Positions 35,269 through 44,492 of a stretch of 64,000 nucleotides of DNA are shown here, one piece after another. Source of the stretch: Haloarcula taiwanensis (GTDB lineage: Archaea > Halobacteriota > Halobacteria > Halobacteriales > Haloarculaceae); NCBI GenBank assembly GCA_002844335.1, contig CP019155.1, forward strand, positions 248,001-312,000. Direction: 5' to 3'. Position 1 is the stretch's first letter. Every line of letters starts with the position of its first letter. Both the position numbers and the translations under genes were made by a program. The notes under the pieces were generated by a model. The model was not told the origin of the DNA and did not search any database. It saw only the letters and a list, made by a program, of their open reading frames with translations.

Positions 35269-36009
35269 TCAGTGGACCGACCGCTCGTCGCTTTCGTCGA
35301 TGTCTTCGATGGGGTCGGCGTTGCCAAACGACGGTTCCGGTCCGTCCCCTGCCGCGGCCCACTCGCAGGCATTGGCGAGGACCTGCTGGATAGCTTCGTC
35401 GTGGTAAATCGGATAGGTCTCGTGGCCCGGCCGGAAGTAGAAAATACGACCTGCGCCGCGGCGGTAGCAACAGCCCGACCGGAACACCTCGCCGCCCTCG
35501 AACCAGGAGTTGAACACGAGCGTGTCCGGCGCGGGGATGTCGAAGCGCTCGCCGTACATCTCGGTCTCCGGGAGTTCGATGTACTCGCCGACCCCATCGG
35601 CGATTGGATGGCCGGGTTCGACGACCCATAACCGCTCGGTTTCGGCGGCCTCGCGCCACTTCAGGCTGCAGGTCGTCCCCATCAGCTCGCGGAATATCTT
35701 CGAGTAGTGGCCCGAGTGGAGGACGATGAGTCCCATGCCGTCGAGGACCCGCTCTTTCACCCGGGCGACCACTTCGTCAGCGACCTGGTCGTGTGCGGCG
35801 TGTCCCCACCAGGTAAGGACGTCCGTTTCTGCCAGTACATCCTCGGTGAGACCGTGCTCGGGTTCTTGGAGTGTCGCGGTTTCCGCGTCGAATCCGCGCT
35901 CTTCCAGGGCTGAGGCGATAGCGCCGTGAATTCCATCGGGGTACAGGTCTGCGACTGCTTCGTGTTCCTGCTCGTGAACGTACTCGTTCCAGACTGTGAC
36001 GCGTGTCAT
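35269..36009 (-). CDS. ThuA domain protein
   Basis: A 246-residue protein of the ThuA (trehalose-utilisation-like) family, a glutamine-amidotransferase-like fold. Diagnostic segments are [48 protein letters not shown] and [25 protein letters not shown]. The ATG at 36009 was chosen over 36048 because the family starts at this conserved motif. Members act in disaccharide or keto-sugar metabolism; no sugar genes flank it here. Confidence 0.87.
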
Positions 36010-36294
36010 ACTCGTGGTTTCCACCTCCGCCGTAACGGCGTTCGCCAAGCGGCAATCCGTACGACGAGCGAACGCGATACGGTCTCGTCTCCGCGACTGT
36101 TCGCTGAGGGACTCTCTACAGTACCGCTGTGCACCTCAGATACCTCTCTGTGTAGCTCAGCGCTGCGTGTCCGGTTCGCGAGCGCGCGCCAGCTCCGCTC
36201 GACAGTGGCTATGACGACCCCGACGCTGAGCGCCACTGCGACTCGATCTCCAACCCCATCCACAGGACCGCGAATGTCGCTCTGAAACCGTCAA

Positions 36295-36310
36295 ATACAG
36301 ACGACTGTAT
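36295..36310. promoter_or_regulatory. Palindromic operator candidate, copy 1
   Basis: ATACAGACGACTGTAT: six-base arms around ACGA. It differs from copy 2 at one base and shares the core TACAnACGACTGTA with the site just upstream of the regulator at 44281. Confidence 0.6.
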
Positions 36311-36326
36311 GGCGCTTCACCAAGAG

Positions 36327-36340
36327 TACAGTCGAGTGAA
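36327..36340 (-). promoter_or_regulatory. Degenerate operator candidate between copies 1 and 2
   Basis: Read on the minus strand this is TTCACTCGACTGTA, matching the core TACAnACGACTGTA except at two positions. It lies between the two good copies and could help cooperative binding. Confidence 0.35.
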
Positions 36341-36366
36341 ATCCCGGCGTAAAGAACTGCTATACC

Positions 36367-36386
36367 GGATACACACGACTGTATCC
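36367..36386. promoter_or_regulatory. Palindromic operator candidate, copy 2
   Basis: GGATACACACGACTGTATCC has perfect seven-base arms (GGATACA / TGTATCC) around CACGAC. Its core is one base different from copy 1, 74 bp away (about seven helical turns). Confidence 0.6.
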
Positions 36387-36632
36387 GATTTCGGAGGTTT
36401 GTACAAAACACTCCCTGATTTTTGTTGTATCAACGTCTCTCGCTCCCGTTTCGACGCTAATCTGAATAGACTATAATGTAAACAGTAGATAGGTATATAT
36501 ACTCCCTGCTAGACGACGTGACTGATGCATTCCATCAGAAACCGCTGTCTCGGAAGGTTTCGACCGATAGAGCTGTGTACCGAGGTGGTTCCGAAATGAG
36601 AGCCCGCCATCGTTTCTCGGGGGTGACGCGCG

Positions 36633-38411
36633 ATGTCTGAGCACACACTGGTGCTCATGGCACTACTCCCGCTAGCGACGATTGCGGTGCTGATGGTTGG
36701 CCTGTACCAGCCTGCGACACGGACAATGCCAATCGCGTGGGCGGTGGCGGCTATCGCCGCCTTCGTCGGCTGGCAGATGTCGCCGACGCTCATCGCCGCC
36801 GCGTCGATACGTGGCGCGCTGACAGCGACCAGAATCCTTGTTATCGTCTTCGGGGCGATACTCCTCCTGTACACGCTGAAACAGTCCGGTGCCTTCGAGG
36901 TGATCAATGCTGGGTTCTCCTCGATTAGCGACGACCGGCGCGTACAGGTCATCCTGCTCGTGTTCCTCATGGGGTCGTTCATTGAGGGTGCAGCCGGCTT
37001 CGGGACGCCAGCGGCTATCGTTGGCCCGCTGCTGGTCGGCCTCGGTTTCCCGCCGCTCGCCGCCGTGGTCGTCGCGCTCACGGGGAACATCCTCGCAATC
37101 ACCTTCGGCGCGGTCGGTACGCCGCTGATTATCGGTCTCCGCGACGTGGTGTTCGCTGAGGGGACCGGTGCGGCACAGCAGGTGGTCCAGCAGGGCGGCT
37201 TCGAGAGCGTCGGCGCGTACGTCGCACAAATCGGTGTGTGGGCGGCGATAATCCACGCTATCGTCGGCATCGCCATCCCCTTTATCGGCGTGGCGATGAT
37301 GACCCGCTTCTTCGGCGAAGAGCGGTCGATTAAGCCCGCGCTCGAAGTCCTGCCGCTGTGTCTCTTCGCGTGGGCGTCTTTCGCAATCCCCTACGTCGCG
37401 ACCGCGTACTTCCTCGGTCCAACGTTCCCGGGACTGCTGGGTGCGATGGTCGGGCTCCTCGTCGTTACGACGACGCTCCGAGCTGGCTACTTCCTTCCCG
37501 ACGATGAGTGGGACTTCGGTCCACAGGACCAGTGGCCGGACCACTGGATCGGTAGCATCGAACCCGGAGAGGGTGTCGGCACCACTACGGGCGACAGCCG
37601 GGAAGGCACGGTTGCAGCCGACGGTGGCACGGCAACGTTCGAAGAATCTCACTCGCAGGATATGTCGCTGGGGATGGCCTGGCTGCCGTACCTCCTCGTG
37701 GCTGCGCTGCTCGTCGTGACTCGTGTCGTCGGTCCGGTTCAGGAGTTCCTGGCGACCACCGGCGTTCTTATGTGGAACAACATCCTCGGCACGCCGTTCT
37801 CTGAAGGCGTCGAGTTGTTCTACCTCCCCGGGAGCCTGTTCGTTCTCGTCGCGGTGATCACCTACGCGCTCCACGGGATGGACACTGACGGTATCAAAGC
37901 CTCGTGGAGTGAGGCACTCCGAAACATCGCACCAGCCGTCGTCGCGCTGTGGTTCGCAGTTGCCACGGTCATGATCATGCAACGGACCGGCAGTGCCGTC
38001 GTGCTGGAGACTGCGCCGATCAACTCCGGGATGCTCGGACTGCTGTCGGAGATTACTGCGAACACGACCGGCCAGATGTTCCCGTTCTTCTCGGGCTTCA
38101 TCGGTGCGTTCGGCGCGTTCATCGCTGGCTCGAATACGGTCAGCGACATCCTGTTCGGGCTGTTCCAGTTCCAGGCTGCCCAGCAGATCGGTGCGCCGAC
38201 GCAGATCATCGTCGCCGCACAGGCGGTCGGTGGCGCAATCGGTAACCTCATCGCGATTCACAACGTCGTGGCCGCTCTCACCGTGGTCGGCCTCATCGGC
38301 GAGGAGGGACGCGTCATCCGCCTCGAACTGATTCCGGTACTGTACTACGGCGTGTTCACGGGCATACTGACGCTCATCCTGGCCTACGTCGTGGCACCGG
38401 GCGCGTTCTAA
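36633..38411 (+). CDS. Lactate permease (LctP family)
   Basis: A 592-residue membrane protein of the LctP family with about a dozen or more helices, importing lactate (and often glycolate) with a cation. Family segments are [45 protein letters not shown], and [26 protein letters not shown] hydrophilic loop near residues 290-340 is acidic. It starts at ATG 36633 with a ggtga ribosome site. The D-lactate dehydrogenase follows 25 bp later, so the pair forms a lactate uptake and oxidation operon. Repeated operator-like sites lie upstream. Confidence 0.93.
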
Positions 38412-38436
38412 CTCGACTCCTCTTCCGTTCTTACTC

Positions 38437-41400
38437 ATGGCATACGACTCCCGACCCCCCCAACAGCACGACCCGGCGACAGACCCGAGCGCGAACTACG
38501 ACTACCAGGGCGACAGCGTCAACCGGCCGGACCTCGTTGCGGCCTTAGAGCGCCGCGTTGACGGCGACGTACGCTTCGACGCGTACACCCGGGAACTGTT
38601 CGCGACCGACGCGAGTGCCTACGAACAGCTCCCAATCGGCGTCGTCTCGCCGGTCTCGACCGACGATGTGGTCGCGGTGATGGAGTACTGCGCCGAGGAG
38701 GATATTCCGGTCCTCCCACGGGGCGGCGGGACCAGTCTCGCCGGACAGTCGGTAAACGAGGCGGTCGTCCTCGATTTCAAGCGGCACATGGACGAACCGC
38801 TGTCGGTTGACCCGGAGGCCGAACAGGTCCGTGCGCAGGTAGGCATCACGATTGCTCGACTCAACGACCGACTCGAACCCCACGGCCTGAAGTTTGCGCC
38901 GGACCCTGCGTGGGGGGACAAGAGCGTTCTCGGCGGTGCAATCGGGAACAACACGACCGGCGCGCACTCGCTGAAATACGGCAAGACAGACGCCTATATC
39001 GAAGAGTGTGAGGTCGTCCTCGCGGACGGCACCCGGACGACCTTCGGCTGGGTCGACGTCGACGACCTCGAAGCGCGAGCGGCCGAGGCCGGCCCCGACG
39101 CCGACCTTGAAACCCGGATTTACGCCGAAGTCGCTAAGATCATCTCGGAGGACGCCGACGCGATAGACGCCCGGTATCCGGACCTCAAGCGCAACGTCTC
39201 CGGGTACAACCTGGACGAACTGGTCGACAACGCCAGAGAGCGCGGCGAGGTCAACCTCGCCCGTCTGCTCGCGGGGAGCGAGGGGACGCTGGCGGTCGTC
39301 ACGGAGGCGACGGTCTCGCTGGAGCCCGTCCCCGAGGCCACGGCCGTCGCCATGCTGACATACGACGATATCATCTCGGCGATGCGGGATGTCGACCCGA
39401 TTCTGGACCACGACCCCTCGGCCGTCGAGGTGATGGACGACGTATTGCTGGACCTCGCGGCGGAGACGCCGGAGTTCGCTGACGTTGTCGGCATGCTCCC
39501 CGAGGAGACCGACTCGACGCTGCTCGTCGAGTTCTACGCCGATTCGCCAGACGACGGGGCCCAGAAAGTCGCCGACCTGCTCGCCGACCGGCTTCCGGGC
39601 TACGAAGCACGAGAATCGCCGCGTGACGGGGCCGCTTCCGTCACCGACGCCCCTGTTCACGCTGTCGACGCGCTGGAGGCGTACGACGCGGACCGGCAGG
39701 CGAAGTTCTGGAAGATGCGCAAAGCCGGGCTGCCGATTCTGCTGTCCCGAACGGGCGACGACAAGCACTGGCCGTTCGTCGAGGACACGGCGGTCCCGGC
39801 CGAGAACCTCCCGGAGTACGTCGCCGATATCCGGGAGTTGTTCGACGAGCACGACACCTTCGCCTCCTACTACGCCCACGCCGGCCCCGGCGTCCTGCAC
39901 ATCAGGCCGCTGTTGAACCTGAAATCCGAGGACGGTATCGAGACCATGGAGGCCATCTCCGACGCCATCACGGACCTCGTCGTCCAGTACGACGGCTCCG
40001 TCTCCGGCGAACACGGTGACGGCCGCGCCCGGACCCAGTGGAACCGGAAACTGTACGGCGACGACCTCTGGGAAACGTTCCGCGACCTGAAATCGGCGTT
40101 CGACCCCGACTGGCGGCTGAACCCGGGGAACATCTGTGGCGACCACGACCCGGCCGACGACCTCCGGTACGACCCCGATTACGCCTTCGACGCGGGCTTC
40201 GAGCCCACGCTGGAGTGGGACAACGACAACGGGTTCCAGGGGATGGTGGAACTCTGTCACGGGTGTGCGGGCTGTACCGGCCACCAGGAGACCACCGGCG
40301 GCGTCATGTGTCCGACATACCGCGCCGCCGAGGAGGAAATCACCAGCACCCGCGGCCGGGCCAACATGCTCCGGTCGGCGATGGACGGTGACCTCCCCGA
40401 CGACCCCACCGACGAGGAGTTCATCACCGAGGTGCTGGACCTCTGTATCGGCTGTAAAGGCTGCAAGAAGGACTGTCCGAGCGGCGTCGACATGGCGAAG
40501 CTCAAAGCCGAGGTGGTCCACGAACACCACCAGCGCGAGGGCATCTCACTGCGAGATCGGCTGTTCGCCAACGTCGAGACGGTGCTCTCGCTCGGGAGTG
40601 CATTCGCTCCAGTGTCGAACTGGCTGATGGACCTGCCGGGGGCGGGCCGTCTCATGGAGAAAACGGTCGGCATCACGGAAGAGCGCACCCTGCCCGCCTT
40701 CCACCGGACCACGTTCCGGGACTGGTGGGCCGACCGCGGCGGGGCGCTTGTCGCGGCGAGCAGAGCCGACCGGAAGGCGCTCTTGCTCGCCGACCCGTAC
40801 ACGAACTACAGCCACCCCGATGTCGGGAAAGCGGCCGTAGAAGTGCTCGAGGCGGCGGGCGTCCACGTCGTCATGCCAGACGACGTGACAGACAGCGGTC
40901 GGCCCGCGTTCTCCAAGAGTATGCTGGACCACGCTCGCGAGACGGCACGGGCAAACGTGGACGCGCTCGCGCCGCGAATCCGTGAGGGCTGGGACGTTGT
41001 CACTATCGAACCCTCCGACGCGGTGATGTACCAGGTCGACTATCGGGACCTCCTTTCCGGCGACGACGTCGACGCCGTCGCAGAGAACACGTACGGCGTC
41101 TGCGAGTACATCGACACGTACCGGCTAGGGGAGGCTATCTCCTTCGGTGACGCTGGCGACTCGCTAGCGTACCACGGCCACTGCCACCAGAAGGCGACGA
41201 AGAAGGACCATCACGCCGTCGGCGTCCTCCGGCGGGCCGGCTACGATGTGGACCCGCTGGATTCGGGCTGTTGTGGCATGGCCGGCTCCTTCGGTTACGA
41301 GGCCGAACACTACTCAATGAGCGAGGCCATCGCTGACCTCTTGCTGGGCCAGATAGATGACTCGCCGGCCGAACAGGTCGTCGCACCCGGCGCGTCCTGT

Positions 41401-41481
41401 CGGTCTCAGATAGACGATTTCGGCGATGGCGACGCGAAACCGCCCCACCCAATCGAGATGGTCGCGGCGGCGATGCGGTAA
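38437..41481 (+). CDS. FAD/Fe-S D-lactate dehydrogenase (GlcD-GlpC fusion type)
   Basis: A 1014-residue fusion. Residues about 25-590 form the FAD-linked oxidase (LPRGGGTSLAGQSV binds FAD; GAIGNNTTGAHSLKYGKT; SGEHGDGRARTQWNRKLYG). Two [4Fe-4S] motifs follow: CHGCAGCTG...CP near residue 606 and CIGCKGCKKDCP near 668. The C-terminal part carries heterodisulfide-reductase-like cysteine/histidine motifs HGHCHQK and LDSGCCGMAGSFGYE near 914 and 942. Such enzymes oxidise D-lactate (or glycolate) and pass electrons to the membrane quinone pool. Its position directly after lctP supports the lactate substrate. Confidence 0.92.
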   Translation: MAYDSRPPQQHDPATDPSANYDYQGDSVNRPDLVAALERRVDGDVRFDAYTRELFATDASAYEQLPIGVVSPVSTDDVVAVMEYCAEEDIPVLPRGGGTSLAGQSVNEAVVLDFKRHMDEPLSVDPEAEQVRAQVGITIARLNDRLEPHGLKFAPDPAWGDKSVLGGAIGNNTTGAHSLKYGKTDAYIEECEVVLADGTRTTFGWVDVDDLEARAAEAGPDADLETRIYAEVAKIISEDADAIDARYPDLKRNVSGYNLDELVDNARERGEVNLARLLAGSEGTLAVVTEATVSLEPVPEATAVAMLTYDDIISAMRDVDPILDHDPSAVEVMDDVLLDLAAETPEFADVVGMLPEETDSTLLVEFYADSPDDGAQKVADLLADRLPGYEARESPRDGAASVTDAPVHAVDALEAYDADRQAKFWKMRKAGLPILLSRTGDDKHWPFVEDTAVPAENLPEYVADIRELFDEHDTFASYYAHAGPGVLHIRPLLNLKSEDGIETMEAISDAITDLVVQYDGSVSGEHGDGRARTQWNRKLYGDDLWETFRDLKSAFDPDWRLNPGNICGDHDPADDLRYDPDYAFDAGFEPTLEWDNDNGFQGMVELCHGCAGCTGHQETTGGVMCPTYRAAEEEITSTRGRANMLRSAMDGDLPDDPTDEEFITEVLDLCIGCKGCKKDCPSGVDMAKLKAEVVHEHHQREGISLRDRLFANVETVLSLGSAFAPVSNWLMDLPGAGRLMEKTVGITEERTLPAFHRTTFRDWWADRGGALVAASRADRKALLLADPYTNYSHPDVGKAAVEVLEAAGVHVVMPDDVTDSGRPAFSKSMLDHARETARANVDALAPRIREGWDVVTIEPSDAVMYQVDYRDLLSGDDVDAVAENTYGVCEYIDTYRLGEAISFGDAGDSLAYHGHCHQKATKKDHHAVGVLRRAGYDVDPLDSGCCGMAGSFGYEAEHYSMSEAIADLLLGQIDDSPAEQVVAPGASCRSQIDDFGDGDAKPPHPIEMVAAAMR

Positions 41482-41511
41482 CCGGGTGCCTGGTGATACC
41501 TCCGTCTGCAG

Positions 41512-41949
41512 TCAGAACCCGATACCGTCCCTTTGTCTGACGGTGACGTCGTGCCCGTCTACCGTTGACCGAAGCGCCTGTGTGAACGGTTCGGCGTCGA
41601 ACTGGCCGTGGACGCGAAGAGTCGTTGCGGAGTCTGTTCGGGGCCGTGCTGTGATTTTCGGCCGACCGACTCGGCCACCAGTGTGGATATCGACACTGTC
41701 GAGTGTGTCGTATGACTGCGTGTCGACCTGTTCGGCTGTCTCGATGGCCGCCGGGACGCCCTCTTCGACCACCCGTGAGGCGAACGCGGCGGCCCGCTGA
41801 CCCGGCGATCCGAACACCAGGTCGACGGGGGTAAGATAATCGTACTCGACGAAGTAGGCTCGTTCCGTACAGAACAACACGTCGACCAGCCGAAGCGGGT
41901 ACGATCCTCGCATCGTATAGTGCAAGTGGACGCGGAGTTCGTCGGTCAC
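41512..41949 (-). CDS. Haloarchaeal hypothetical in the Nramp-like operon
   Basis: A 145-residue protein with no family I recognise. The N-terminal half (ELRVHLHYTMRGSYPLRLVDVLFCTERAYFVEYDYLTPVDLVFG) is beta-rich and the C-terminus contains RVHGQFDAEPFTQALRSTV. The GTG at 41949 overlaps the transporter stop in GTGA, the same coupling seen between the first two genes of this operon. It probably assists or is co-regulated with the transporter. Confidence 0.7.
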   Translation of the reverse strand: MTDELRVHLHYTMRGSYPLRLVDVLFCTERAYFVEYDYLTPVDLVFGSPGQRAAAFASRVVEEGVPAAIETAEQVDTQSYDTLDSVDIHTGGRVGRPKITARPRTDSATTLRVHGQFDAEPFTQALRSTVDGHDVTVRQRDGIGF

Positions 41950-43712
41950 GAGAACCACCCTTTCGCAGCGGCCGCATCAGCGACCGTTCCGTCTGCCGCG
42001 ACCTTCGCACGTCCGACTCGATACATCGTGTACAGCTGGACGAGCAGGAAGACTGCCCAGAGGACGTACCCTCCCGGTCCACTGCCGAGTACGGCTGGCT
42101 GGACGGTGAACACCCGCAATCCCAGTCGTGTCGTCAGCCCCGTGCCAATCAAGAGGACGCTGAAATAGCCGAAGAACGCGGCAGCGACCCACATCGCGAC
42201 GATGCGCCCCCAGCCCGGCATCGTATGCTCCGGGAGCCGGACCGTGTTGACGAGCTGTACGATGACGATGTAGGGCCACATCAACAACCCGGACATCGCC
42301 GCCCCAACGACCAGGAGTCCGAAGGGGTCGGATATCGATATCGGCAGGCTGAGAATGAGCACGCCCCAGCCACAGAAGACAGTCAGCAATCCCCAGAACA
42401 GCCGCGGCAGACTCCAGCCCGCTTCTCGGCCGTACAGCTCGTAGATAATATCGGAACTGTTCCGGACGAACGACTCGATGATCGCGTATTCGGTTGTGAA
42501 CAGGGCGAGAAACAGCGTGACGTAGATGACGCTCGTCGTGACCCCGCCGACCGATGGCGCGATCTCGATGAGCCACATATCTACTGCGTCACTCGTCGTC
42601 CCCGGTGCCTGCGACACGGCGATGACGACCAGTATCGTCGTGACCAGAAGGAGACCAAGCAGGAAGGTCAAGAGGTGTTCGAGCTGTGTCACGCGCCACC
42701 AGCCCCGCCAGCGTTTGAGGTTCTGCGTGTCCGGGGTGAACGTGAACCCGTCTTCGTGGACGGTTTCGGGGTCGTCGCCGGCGAAGGGGTTCTTGATCCG
42801 GCCCTGATACCGGCCCATTCCATACCCTTTCTCGCGTATCCAGAGGCTCTGTGAGAGGTTGAGGTAGCCGCCCGCCCCGGCGTAGGCCAGCGCCCCGACC
42901 AGCACGGCGATGGTCCCGACCGGCGAGTAGTCCCCGACTTCTGTCAGACTTCCTGGAACGCCAAACAGCACGTCCACTGACCCGATGAGCACGAACAGCA
43001 ACAGTGTAAACGCGATGGACAGTGCCACCAGAACAAGCTGGAGGCTCTCGACGACATTGTACATCAGCGGCGTCACCTGGTAGGTAATCCAGATGAACAC
43101 CATGAGCCCGATACCGAACAGTCGCCAGCCGACGATGTCGACGCCGGCGAAGTCATACGTACCGAGTGCGAGCCCTTCGGCCCCGATTCGTGCGGCGCTT
43201 GCGGCCCAGCCCGGCCAGCCGAGACTGACGAACCCGCCCAGTAGCATGGCCAGCGGGAGGACCGGATGAACCCGCTCGAACGCCCGAAACACGCTCTCAC
43301 CGGTCGCAAGTGTCCACCGCTGTATCTCGGTGTTGATGATAAAGTGGAGGCTGACAGCCACGAGGAACAGCCAGTACAGTCCCCACCCGTAGCTGGCGAC
43401 CAGATGCGGCCAGAACAGCGTTTCACCGCTCCCGAGCGACGCCCCGAGCATGATTGCGCTGGGGCCGACGACGTGGCGGAGCTTCGGCACCTTCGGCAAC
43501 GAGAGTTCTCTGAACCGCCCGCCTGTTCCCGTGTCCGGATGGGCATCACTCTCCGGTGCCGCTTCGAGATTGTCGTATGCGACCGGGGTGTACGATGAGA
43601 TAGGATACCGCTGCTCTTTGCGAGAGGCGTACACCTCCTCTGTCTCTGACTCCGTCTCGTCTGCTACGTCCGACTGTTCCGTCGGCTTTTCCTCTGGCAT
43701 CGATGAACTCAC
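41946..43712 (-). CDS. Nramp-fold transporter lacking classical metal-binding motifs
   Basis: A 588-residue membrane protein resembling Nramp-family carriers, with a roughly 75-residue hydrophilic N-terminus and about eleven helices. In the first helix the expected DPGN motif is replaced (GPSAIMLGASLGSGETLFWPHL). In the sixth the expected MPH motif is also gone (YAGAGGYLNLSQSLWIREKGYGMG). These residues bind the divalent metal in true Nramp proteins, so the substrate is uncertain. A GTG start at 43712 is chosen because it overlaps the regulator stop (GTGA); ATG at 43700 is the alternative. It lies in an operon opposing the lactate genes. Confidence 0.82.
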   Translation of the reverse strand: MSSSMPEEKPTEQSDVADETESETEEVYASRKEQRYPISSYTPVAYDNLEAAPESDAHPDTGTGGRFRELSLPKVPKLRHVVGPSAIMLGASLGSGETLFWPHLVASYGWGLYWLFLVAVSLHFIINTEIQRWTLATGESVFRAFERVHPVLPLAMLLGGFVSLGWPGWAASAARIGAEGLALGTYDFAGVDIVGWRLFGIGLMVFIWITYQVTPLMYNVVESLQLVLVALSIAFTLLLFVLIGSVDVLFGVPGSLTEVGDYSPVGTIAVLVGALAYAGAGGYLNLSQSLWIREKGYGMGRYQGRIKNPFAGDDPETVHEDGFTFTPDTQNLKRWRGWWRVTQLEHLLTFLLGLLLVTTILVVIAVSQAPGTTSDAVDMWLIEIAPSVGGVTTSVIYVTLFLALFTTEYAIIESFVRNSSDIIYELYGREAGWSLPRLFWGLLTVFCGWGVLILSLPISISDPFGLLVVGAAMSGLLMWPYIVIVQLVNTVRLPEHTMPGWGRIVAMWVAAAFFGYFSVLLIGTGLTTRLGLRVFTVQPAVLGSGPGGYVLWAVFLLVQLYTMYRVGRAKVAADGTVADAAAAKGWFS

Positions 43713-44281
43713 CCACCGACGTAGTGCCAGACGTGCTCGTGGTCGGCAGCCAGGTCAACCTGTGGGAGGTCCTCTAGAGCGGGTCCGATTGCGTCCCACC
43801 ACTCGTCAGCGGTTTTGTAGCCCGCCGGATGTTCCTGAAACACCTCGGTAATGAGTTTTCCGGCATCGGTATCAGGGTTTTCACGAAGATAATCGTACGC
43901 GGCCCGCAACGCCGTACGTCGGTCGTCCAGTGTATCCCCCGTCCCCGGTAGGTCCGCATCGGCGATACTGTGCTCGACTGGTGGCTCGCGGTCCCGTTGT
44001 GGTTCCGTGCCTGGGCCGACGAGCTGGGAGAACGGGATCCACCAGACCCGACTCCGTGCGCCGACTTTTCGCGTTTCCAGCTCCCCTCGCTCCACGAGTA
44101 TGTCGAGCTTGTTGTGTGCCGTCTTCCGGGAACAGCCGAGCGCGTCCATCACATCGGTTGCCGTCAACGGCTTCGCTTGGTCCGTCCGGTCTTGAAACAC
44201 CGAGAGCACTCGCTCCGGTGTGAACTCTGCCGTGGACGGTGGCGACCCGTCAGCCTGACCATCGTCCGCGGTATTGCTCAT
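43709..44281 (-). CDS. Winged-helix transcriptional regulator
   Basis: A 190-residue protein. Residues about 20-85 form a helix-turn-helix (LTATDVMDALGCSRKTAHNKLDILVERGELETRKVGARSRVWW) with a wing-like hairpin. The C-terminal region (AAYDYLRENPDTDAGKLITEVFQEHPAGYKTADEWWDAIGPAL) is a second helical domain, possibly a sensor or DNA-binding module. A palindrome directly upstream of its start suggests autoregulation, and the same core motif occurs before the lactate permease. It is the first gene of the three-gene minus-strand operon. Confidence 0.85.
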   Translation of the reverse strand: MSNTADDGQADGSPPSTAEFTPERVLSVFQDRTDQAKPLTATDVMDALGCSRKTAHNKLDILVERGELETRKVGARSRVWWIPFSQLVGPGTEPQRDREPPVEHSIADADLPGTGDTLDDRRTALRAAYDYLRENPDTDAGKLITEVFQEHPAGYKTADEWWDAIGPALEDLPQVDLAADHEHVWHYVGG

Positions 44282-44289
44282 ACGTAGCC

Positions 44290-44307
44290 ATTACAGTCGT
44301 ATGTAAT
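44290..44307. promoter_or_regulatory. Operator candidate at the regulator start
   Basis: ATTACAGTCGTATGTAAT has six-base arms around GTCGTA and ends nine bases before the regulator ATG. On the minus strand it contains TACATACGACTGTA, the same core as the two sites upstream of lctP. Confidence 0.62.
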
Positions 44308-44492
44308 AGACTTTTCTGCACGAATCTCCGTTTCGGGAGCGAACGCTTACCCGGCGTCAGACGCTCGATAGGTCTCAATCACACACGAAGGTATGAACGG
44401 ACCCCTCTCAGTAGACTCAGCAACAATGCGGTGCCGAGACTCCGCTCTATCGGTTCACTGCCGCAGCCATCGCGCTTCGTTCGGTCTAATTT

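Follow-up and report, generated by a model that had tools for sequence, protein, structure and literature searches.

Pathway-specific control of a lactate permease together with a dehydrogenase is described for the bacterial regulators LldR (PMC10272880) and LurR (PMC6456213), and the regulator considered here (REG) would resemble both in this respect. Unlike them, REG is an archaeal winged-helix protein in which no GntR/FCD or other effector domain was recognised, and its candidate operators are placed relative to TATA elements. TrmB-type regulators of haloarchaea are winged-helix proteins that repress or activate according to the position of their sites. REG is likewise a winged-helix regulator in haloarchaea, but differs from TrmB in its operator, in lacking the TrmB effector domain and in having a local instead of a global predicted regulon.

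The Haloferax cluster HVO_1692-HVO_1697 (ludB, ludC, ..., lctP and an FAD/Fe-S oxidoreductase) contains the same genes as the regulon proposed below. Deletion ties Haloferax ludBC to lactate use, with impaired growth on rhamnose (PMC8305020), and in an endA knock-down no gene is raised more than lctP, while dld rises as well (PMC7714728); the lactate genes are therefore regulated. The literature that we found on this cluster names no regulator, and a search for a haloarchaeal lactate regulator, from which coverage of most subscription journals was missing, returned none, so that the control circuit appears to be undescribed. In several Haloferax species, REG lies between lctP-dld and Nramp-ludC-ludB; synteny would make it either HVO_1694 or HVO_1695, the latter listed as a putative iron-sulfur protein (PMC11349517).

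Here we analysed a 64,000-nucleotide stretch of Haloarcula taiwanensis DNA (contig CP019155.1, positions 248,001 to 312,000; 'the window'). We consider it highly probable that the palindromes found there are operators of REG and that REG locally regulates a lactate regulon of haloarchaea.

Results

Two presumed operons in opposite orientation

The features of the locus are collected in Table 1. With only 26 bp between them, lctP and dld presumably form one plus-strand operon. LctP also matched TIGR00795 with 327.4 bits, slightly under the cut-off of 341. The dld product is presumed to be a D-2-hydroxyacid (lactate) dehydrogenase; its best curated model is the D-2-hydroxyglutarate dehydrogenase YdiJ, with a score under the cut-off of that model. 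On the other strand, REG, the Nramp-fold gene and the gene for a 148-aa protein, whose ends overlap, presumably form the opposing operon. Searches of Pfam and NCBIfam with the 148-aa protein gave no match.

Table 1. Features of the lactate locus (positions in the window)
Feature	Position	Strand	Sequence	Basis or remark
Operator O1	36296..36309	+	TACAGACGACTGTA	-229..-216 relative to predicted lctP transcript start; kept in relatives
Operator O2, degenerate copy	36327..36340	+	TACAGTCGAGTGAA	counterpart in nearly all close relatives
Operator O3	36370..36383	+	TACACACGACTGTA	110 bp upstream of lctP TATA box
lctP TATA box	36494..36501	+	TATATATA	equivalent box in relatives
Possible leaderless small ORF	36525..36599	+	MHSIRNRCLGRFRPIELCTEVVPK	begins at predicted lctP transcript start
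lctP, LctP-family lactate permease	36633..38411	+		Pfam PF02652, E=2.5e-96, 324 bits, cut-off 27
dld, FAD-oxidase/Fe-S/CCG fusion	38437..41481	+		Pfam FAD_binding_4, FAD-oxidase_C, Fer4, CCG
148-aa protein, third gene of REG operon	41512..41958	-		after Nramp gene in many loci
Nramp-fold transporter	41946..43712	-		NCBIfam NF037982, 230 bits, cut-off 50; start overlaps REG stop
REG, 190-aa winged-helix regulator	43709..44281	-		weak Pfam HTH_20 match; AlphaFold; linkage to lactate genes
REG operator	44292..44305	-	TACATACGACTGTA	10 nt before ATG; overlaps TATA-like element
TATA-like element, REG promoter	44303..44310	-	TCTATTAC	assigned by eye; overlapped by operator

A ThuA-like gene (35269-36048) is divergent from lctP, with the lctP operators lying between both starts; it is kept beside lctP only in close Haloarcula relatives. 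The same replicon carries ludC-ludB lactate-oxidation genes apart from the window (G000:C2:411803-414507, L145). These were checked for the operator and had none, which places them outside the regulon in this genome by the operator criterion.

The AlphaFold model of REG consists of a winged helix (residues 22-81) and a three-helix C-terminal module, and the protein is 92-96% identical in the named Haloarcula relatives. A full-length fold search returned generic winged-helix matches only, and no known effector or ligand-binding domain was recognised by family profiles or fold search; searches of PDB sequences with REG and with the Nramp-like protein gave nothing useful. The GntR HTH matched weakly in just 5 of 30 REG members, with no FCD among the matches listed, and REG is on this basis not a member of the GntR/FadR (LldR-type) family. 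The match of the REG family to the TrmB HTH was also weak (best E 0.0043), and the sugar-binding C-terminal domain of TrmB was not recovered. The C-terminal module of REG (~85 aa, PAGY...WW...W motif) recurs in other haloarchaeal proteins, once in tandem (L257-L261). Separately, a 92-aa paralogue (G000:C1:2349546-2349764) resembles REG in its winged helix, with 53% identity, and occurs in almost all of the Haloarcula genomes searched, among them genomes without lctP.

The top Foldseek matches of the Nramp-fold protein are Nramp chains (E about 5e-8), which assigns it to that fold. Nramp proteins coordinate metal through a DPGN motif in TM1 and an MPH-type motif, with its Met residues, in TM6. 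Across 21 homologues of the window protein, invariant GSGE and AGAGGYLN-like columns stand at the expected places of the metal motifs, with the register set by eye. Compared with the divalent metal transporters, the fold is shared but the DPGN and MPH-type motifs seem, by this alignment, to be replaced; the protein apparently is without the metal-binding residues and probably does not carry metals.

Palindromic sites at both promoters

The first-pass annotation had reported a shared motif, present twice upstream of lctP and once on the minus strand before REG, with a degenerate copy between the lctP pair. A pattern search of the window returned exactly three copies of TACANACGACTGTA at these positions and strands, compared with 0 in 100 shuffled windows, and the intervening copy is O2. 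The motif had been seen nowhere else in the window by eye, and this also held: the relaxed palindrome TWCANNCGNNTGWA has 4 matches, which are precisely O1, O2, O3 and the REG operator, where 0.13 would be expected. Every site is an inverted repeat in itself (TACAnnCG/CGnnTGTA), and the repeat is longer at 36370 (GGATACA...TGTATCC) and at 44292 (TTACA...TGTAA). The true unit is the palindrome TACAnnCGnnTGTA. The distance from the minus-strand site to the REG start had been given as nine bases and needs correcting to 10 nt (CAT at 44279-44281). Spacings between O1, O2 and O3 are 31 and 43 bp, approximately three and four helical turns. At the TATA-like element of REG, close relatives share the conserved block AAAAGTCTATTACATACGACTGTAATGG.

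In 36 of 86 lctP promoters the TATA box is followed by an ATG at 22-23 nt, where the transcript is expected to start; this distance is over-represented, and 39 of the 86 have an ATG at 21-25 nt. The small ORFs that it opens are 20-45 codons long, often end at or near the lctP start and are present with or without REG; they may possibly encode a leaderless leader peptide coupled to lctP. In several other genera, an inverted repeat ATGCCA...TGGCAT covers the first bases of the predicted lctP transcript; it may form a hairpin at the 5' end or serve as a further operator. Such a stable hairpin is not a general feature of lctP, since Haloarcula and most Haloferax lack it.

Occurrence in the genome and in relatives

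Whole-genome scans, run as pattern searches, found TACANNCGNNTGTA at 5 places in the 3.72-Mb genome and the reversed-pattern control at 3. Two of the matches fall within coding sequence, and the only non-coding ones are the three window sites, upstream of lctP-dld and of REG. The motif is not widespread in this genome, the outcome on which the first-pass annotation had made its proposal depend. The relaxed pattern occurs at 9 places (reversed pattern, 2), four of which are the window sites; no lactate-related target was evident at the others. Another genome (G281) has 15 relaxed sites elsewhere, against 4 for the control.

Within Haloarcula, intact or one-mismatch sites lie upstream of lctP in all 21 genomes that have the gene, and persist even where lctP identity is only 66% and the flanks have diverged. 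For more distant relatives, a matrix was built solely from the four window sites and the best match recorded in each ~20-kb locus. Of 56 such loci, 47 had their best match in a REG/lctP promoter, with 2.0 expected by area, and the other 9 had it elsewhere; the loci and genomes are phylogenetically related, so that this and the other counts overstate independence. Column-permuted palindromic matrices, the control for AT-rich promoters, gave a mean of 6.7 and a maximum of 34 of the 56 loci, and the mean best score was 18.2 for the real matrix vs 7.8 for the permuted ones. The sites thus recur in diverged relatives. The consensus of 107 sites is TWCASWCGWSTGWA.

Across Halobacteria, the neighbours of REG are lctP, dld, the Nramp-fold gene and the ludC/ludB lactate-oxidation genes. 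Haloferax and several other genera have lctP-dld divergent from REG-Nramp-ludC-ludB, with the sites in one common intergenic region; in Haloarcula the two operons are convergent, each promoter having its own sites. Natrialbaceae have a second lctP in place of the Nramp gene. Nramp genes that stand beside other dehydrogenases without REG had no such sites nearby. An operator shared by regulator and target promoters and a conserved linkage of regulator to pathway, two hallmarks of a local one-component regulon, are both found here.

Dependence of the sites on REG

Among 293 genomes surveyed in the order, 45 have a clear orthologue of REG (E below 1e-80) and 134 have lctP; lctP is present in 42 of the 45 genomes with REG vs 92 of the 248 without it. 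Taking at least 14 bits as the threshold for a site, 44 of 64 lctP promoters in REG-linked loci qualified, compared with 2 of 40 in a control set from genomes without a linked intact REG. Both exceptions involve REG: one genome (G182) has a REG pseudogene with stops adjoining lctP, and in the other (G283) an intact REG lies 538 kb away and the unlinked lctP carries a pair of sites with a spacing of 21 bp. In genomes without REG, none of the 38 lctP promoters had a site of at least 14 bits, and lctP genes 83-88% identical to that of the window have no site where REG is absent.

This comparison comes near to a set of natural knock-outs and provides the strongest evidence that REG would be the reader of the sites. 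It lends strong comparative support to the original proposal that the regulator links lctP-dld with the REG-Nramp operon, since the sites track REG and even the unlinked lctP carries a pair.

On a Haladaptatus litoreus contig (L207 / L235), REG is a pseudogene with internal stops, lctP is intact and the operators persist, which suggests that control was lost recently.

Site geometry and the mode of control

Of the 35 distant loci in which a site at REG could be scored, 21 have it ending 10-12 nt ahead of the ATG. For a leaderless start this is the side of the TATA element, which points to repression by REG of its own operon. Autorepression had been proposed beforehand, and the position of the site fits it in most loci, although in two genomes (G013 and G018) the promoter of the REG copy linked to lctP lacks a site. 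In the lctP promoters that were inspected, the sites precede the TATA box, by 110 bp here and by about 30-80 bp in many divergent loci, a position that favours activation. Adjacent sites are 21 or 22 bp apart in 38 of about 70 pairs from distant loci.

In the mechanism that we propose, a REG dimer would bind each inverted repeat, and arrays whose spacing corresponds to full turns of the helix (31 and 43 bp in the window, 21-22 bp in other loci) would allow cooperative binding. On its own TATA-overlapping site, REG would block initiation and so repress the REG-Nramp-148-aa operon; on the sites upstream of the lctP TATA box, it would activate lctP-dld. Genera with the divergent layout would use sites common to both operons, and Haloarcula separate sites for each. 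For lctP-dld, activation seems somewhat likelier than repression.

The most serious competitor is that REG is purely a repressor of both operons, released by lactate, with the upstream lctP sites acting through oligomerisation or looping. The site geometry at REG is repressor-like and multi-site arrays could spread or loop; moreover, many bacterial lactate regulators are repressors. Direct blocking is, however, impossible from sites as far ahead of the TATA box as those in the inspected lctP promoters, and we give pure repression an appreciable chance that falls short of even.

Discussion

Judged from genomic comparison, REG is very probably a local regulator of lactate use. The genes suggest lactate, or else a related 2-hydroxy acid, as the probable effector. 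A different signal for the regulon (glycolate or another 2-hydroxy acid, pyruvate, redox or iron state), with lactate being just one substrate, we regard as rather unlikely. It would accord with the unsettled substrate of the dld family, with the finding of no known ligand domain in REG and with the rise of Haloferax lctP-dld alongside iron-uptake genes in the endA knock-down (PMC7714728). Against this, most loci have REG in linkage with lctP and ludBC, and the growth defect of the Haloferax ludBC deletion is on rhamnose, which yields lactate (PMC8305020).

We find it very improbable that a different regulator reads the sites. The 92-aa paralogue of Haloarcula shares 53% of its winged helix with REG and was the obvious candidate; it was rejected since it occurs in genomes without lctP and has no operator nearby, and the sites follow REG itself. 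Scarcely credible is the idea that the palindromes are non-regulatory, by chance or as a general feature of AT-rich promoters, which permuted matrices do favour somewhat (6.7 of 56), given that shuffles yield 0, the real matrix scores 47 of 56 and lctP promoters without REG have no site.

With REG taken as the reader, its control type is conventional: one-component regulators dedicated to a single pathway are a known kind. That a second lctP stands in for the Nramp gene in Natrialbaceae is a hint that the Nramp-like protein may transport a related substrate. A joint reading, in which REG represents an archaeal family of lactate sensors, activating through arrays upstream and repressing its own promoter by TATA overlap, and the Nramp-fold protein is a carrier of lactate or hydroxycarboxylates, is put forward tentatively, as less likely than not. 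To our knowledge, this class of substrate is not known for the Nramp fold.

The expression of lctP is strongly variable in Haloferax or Haloarcula, yet the literature that we found names no regulator for it. The locus offers a concrete lactate regulon for haloarchaea, whose regulator gene is named, whose operator is defined and whose targets are predicted, and which is testable in Haloferax or Haloarcula. It also provides a natural set of promoters in which activation and repression by one archaeal factor can be compared according to site position.
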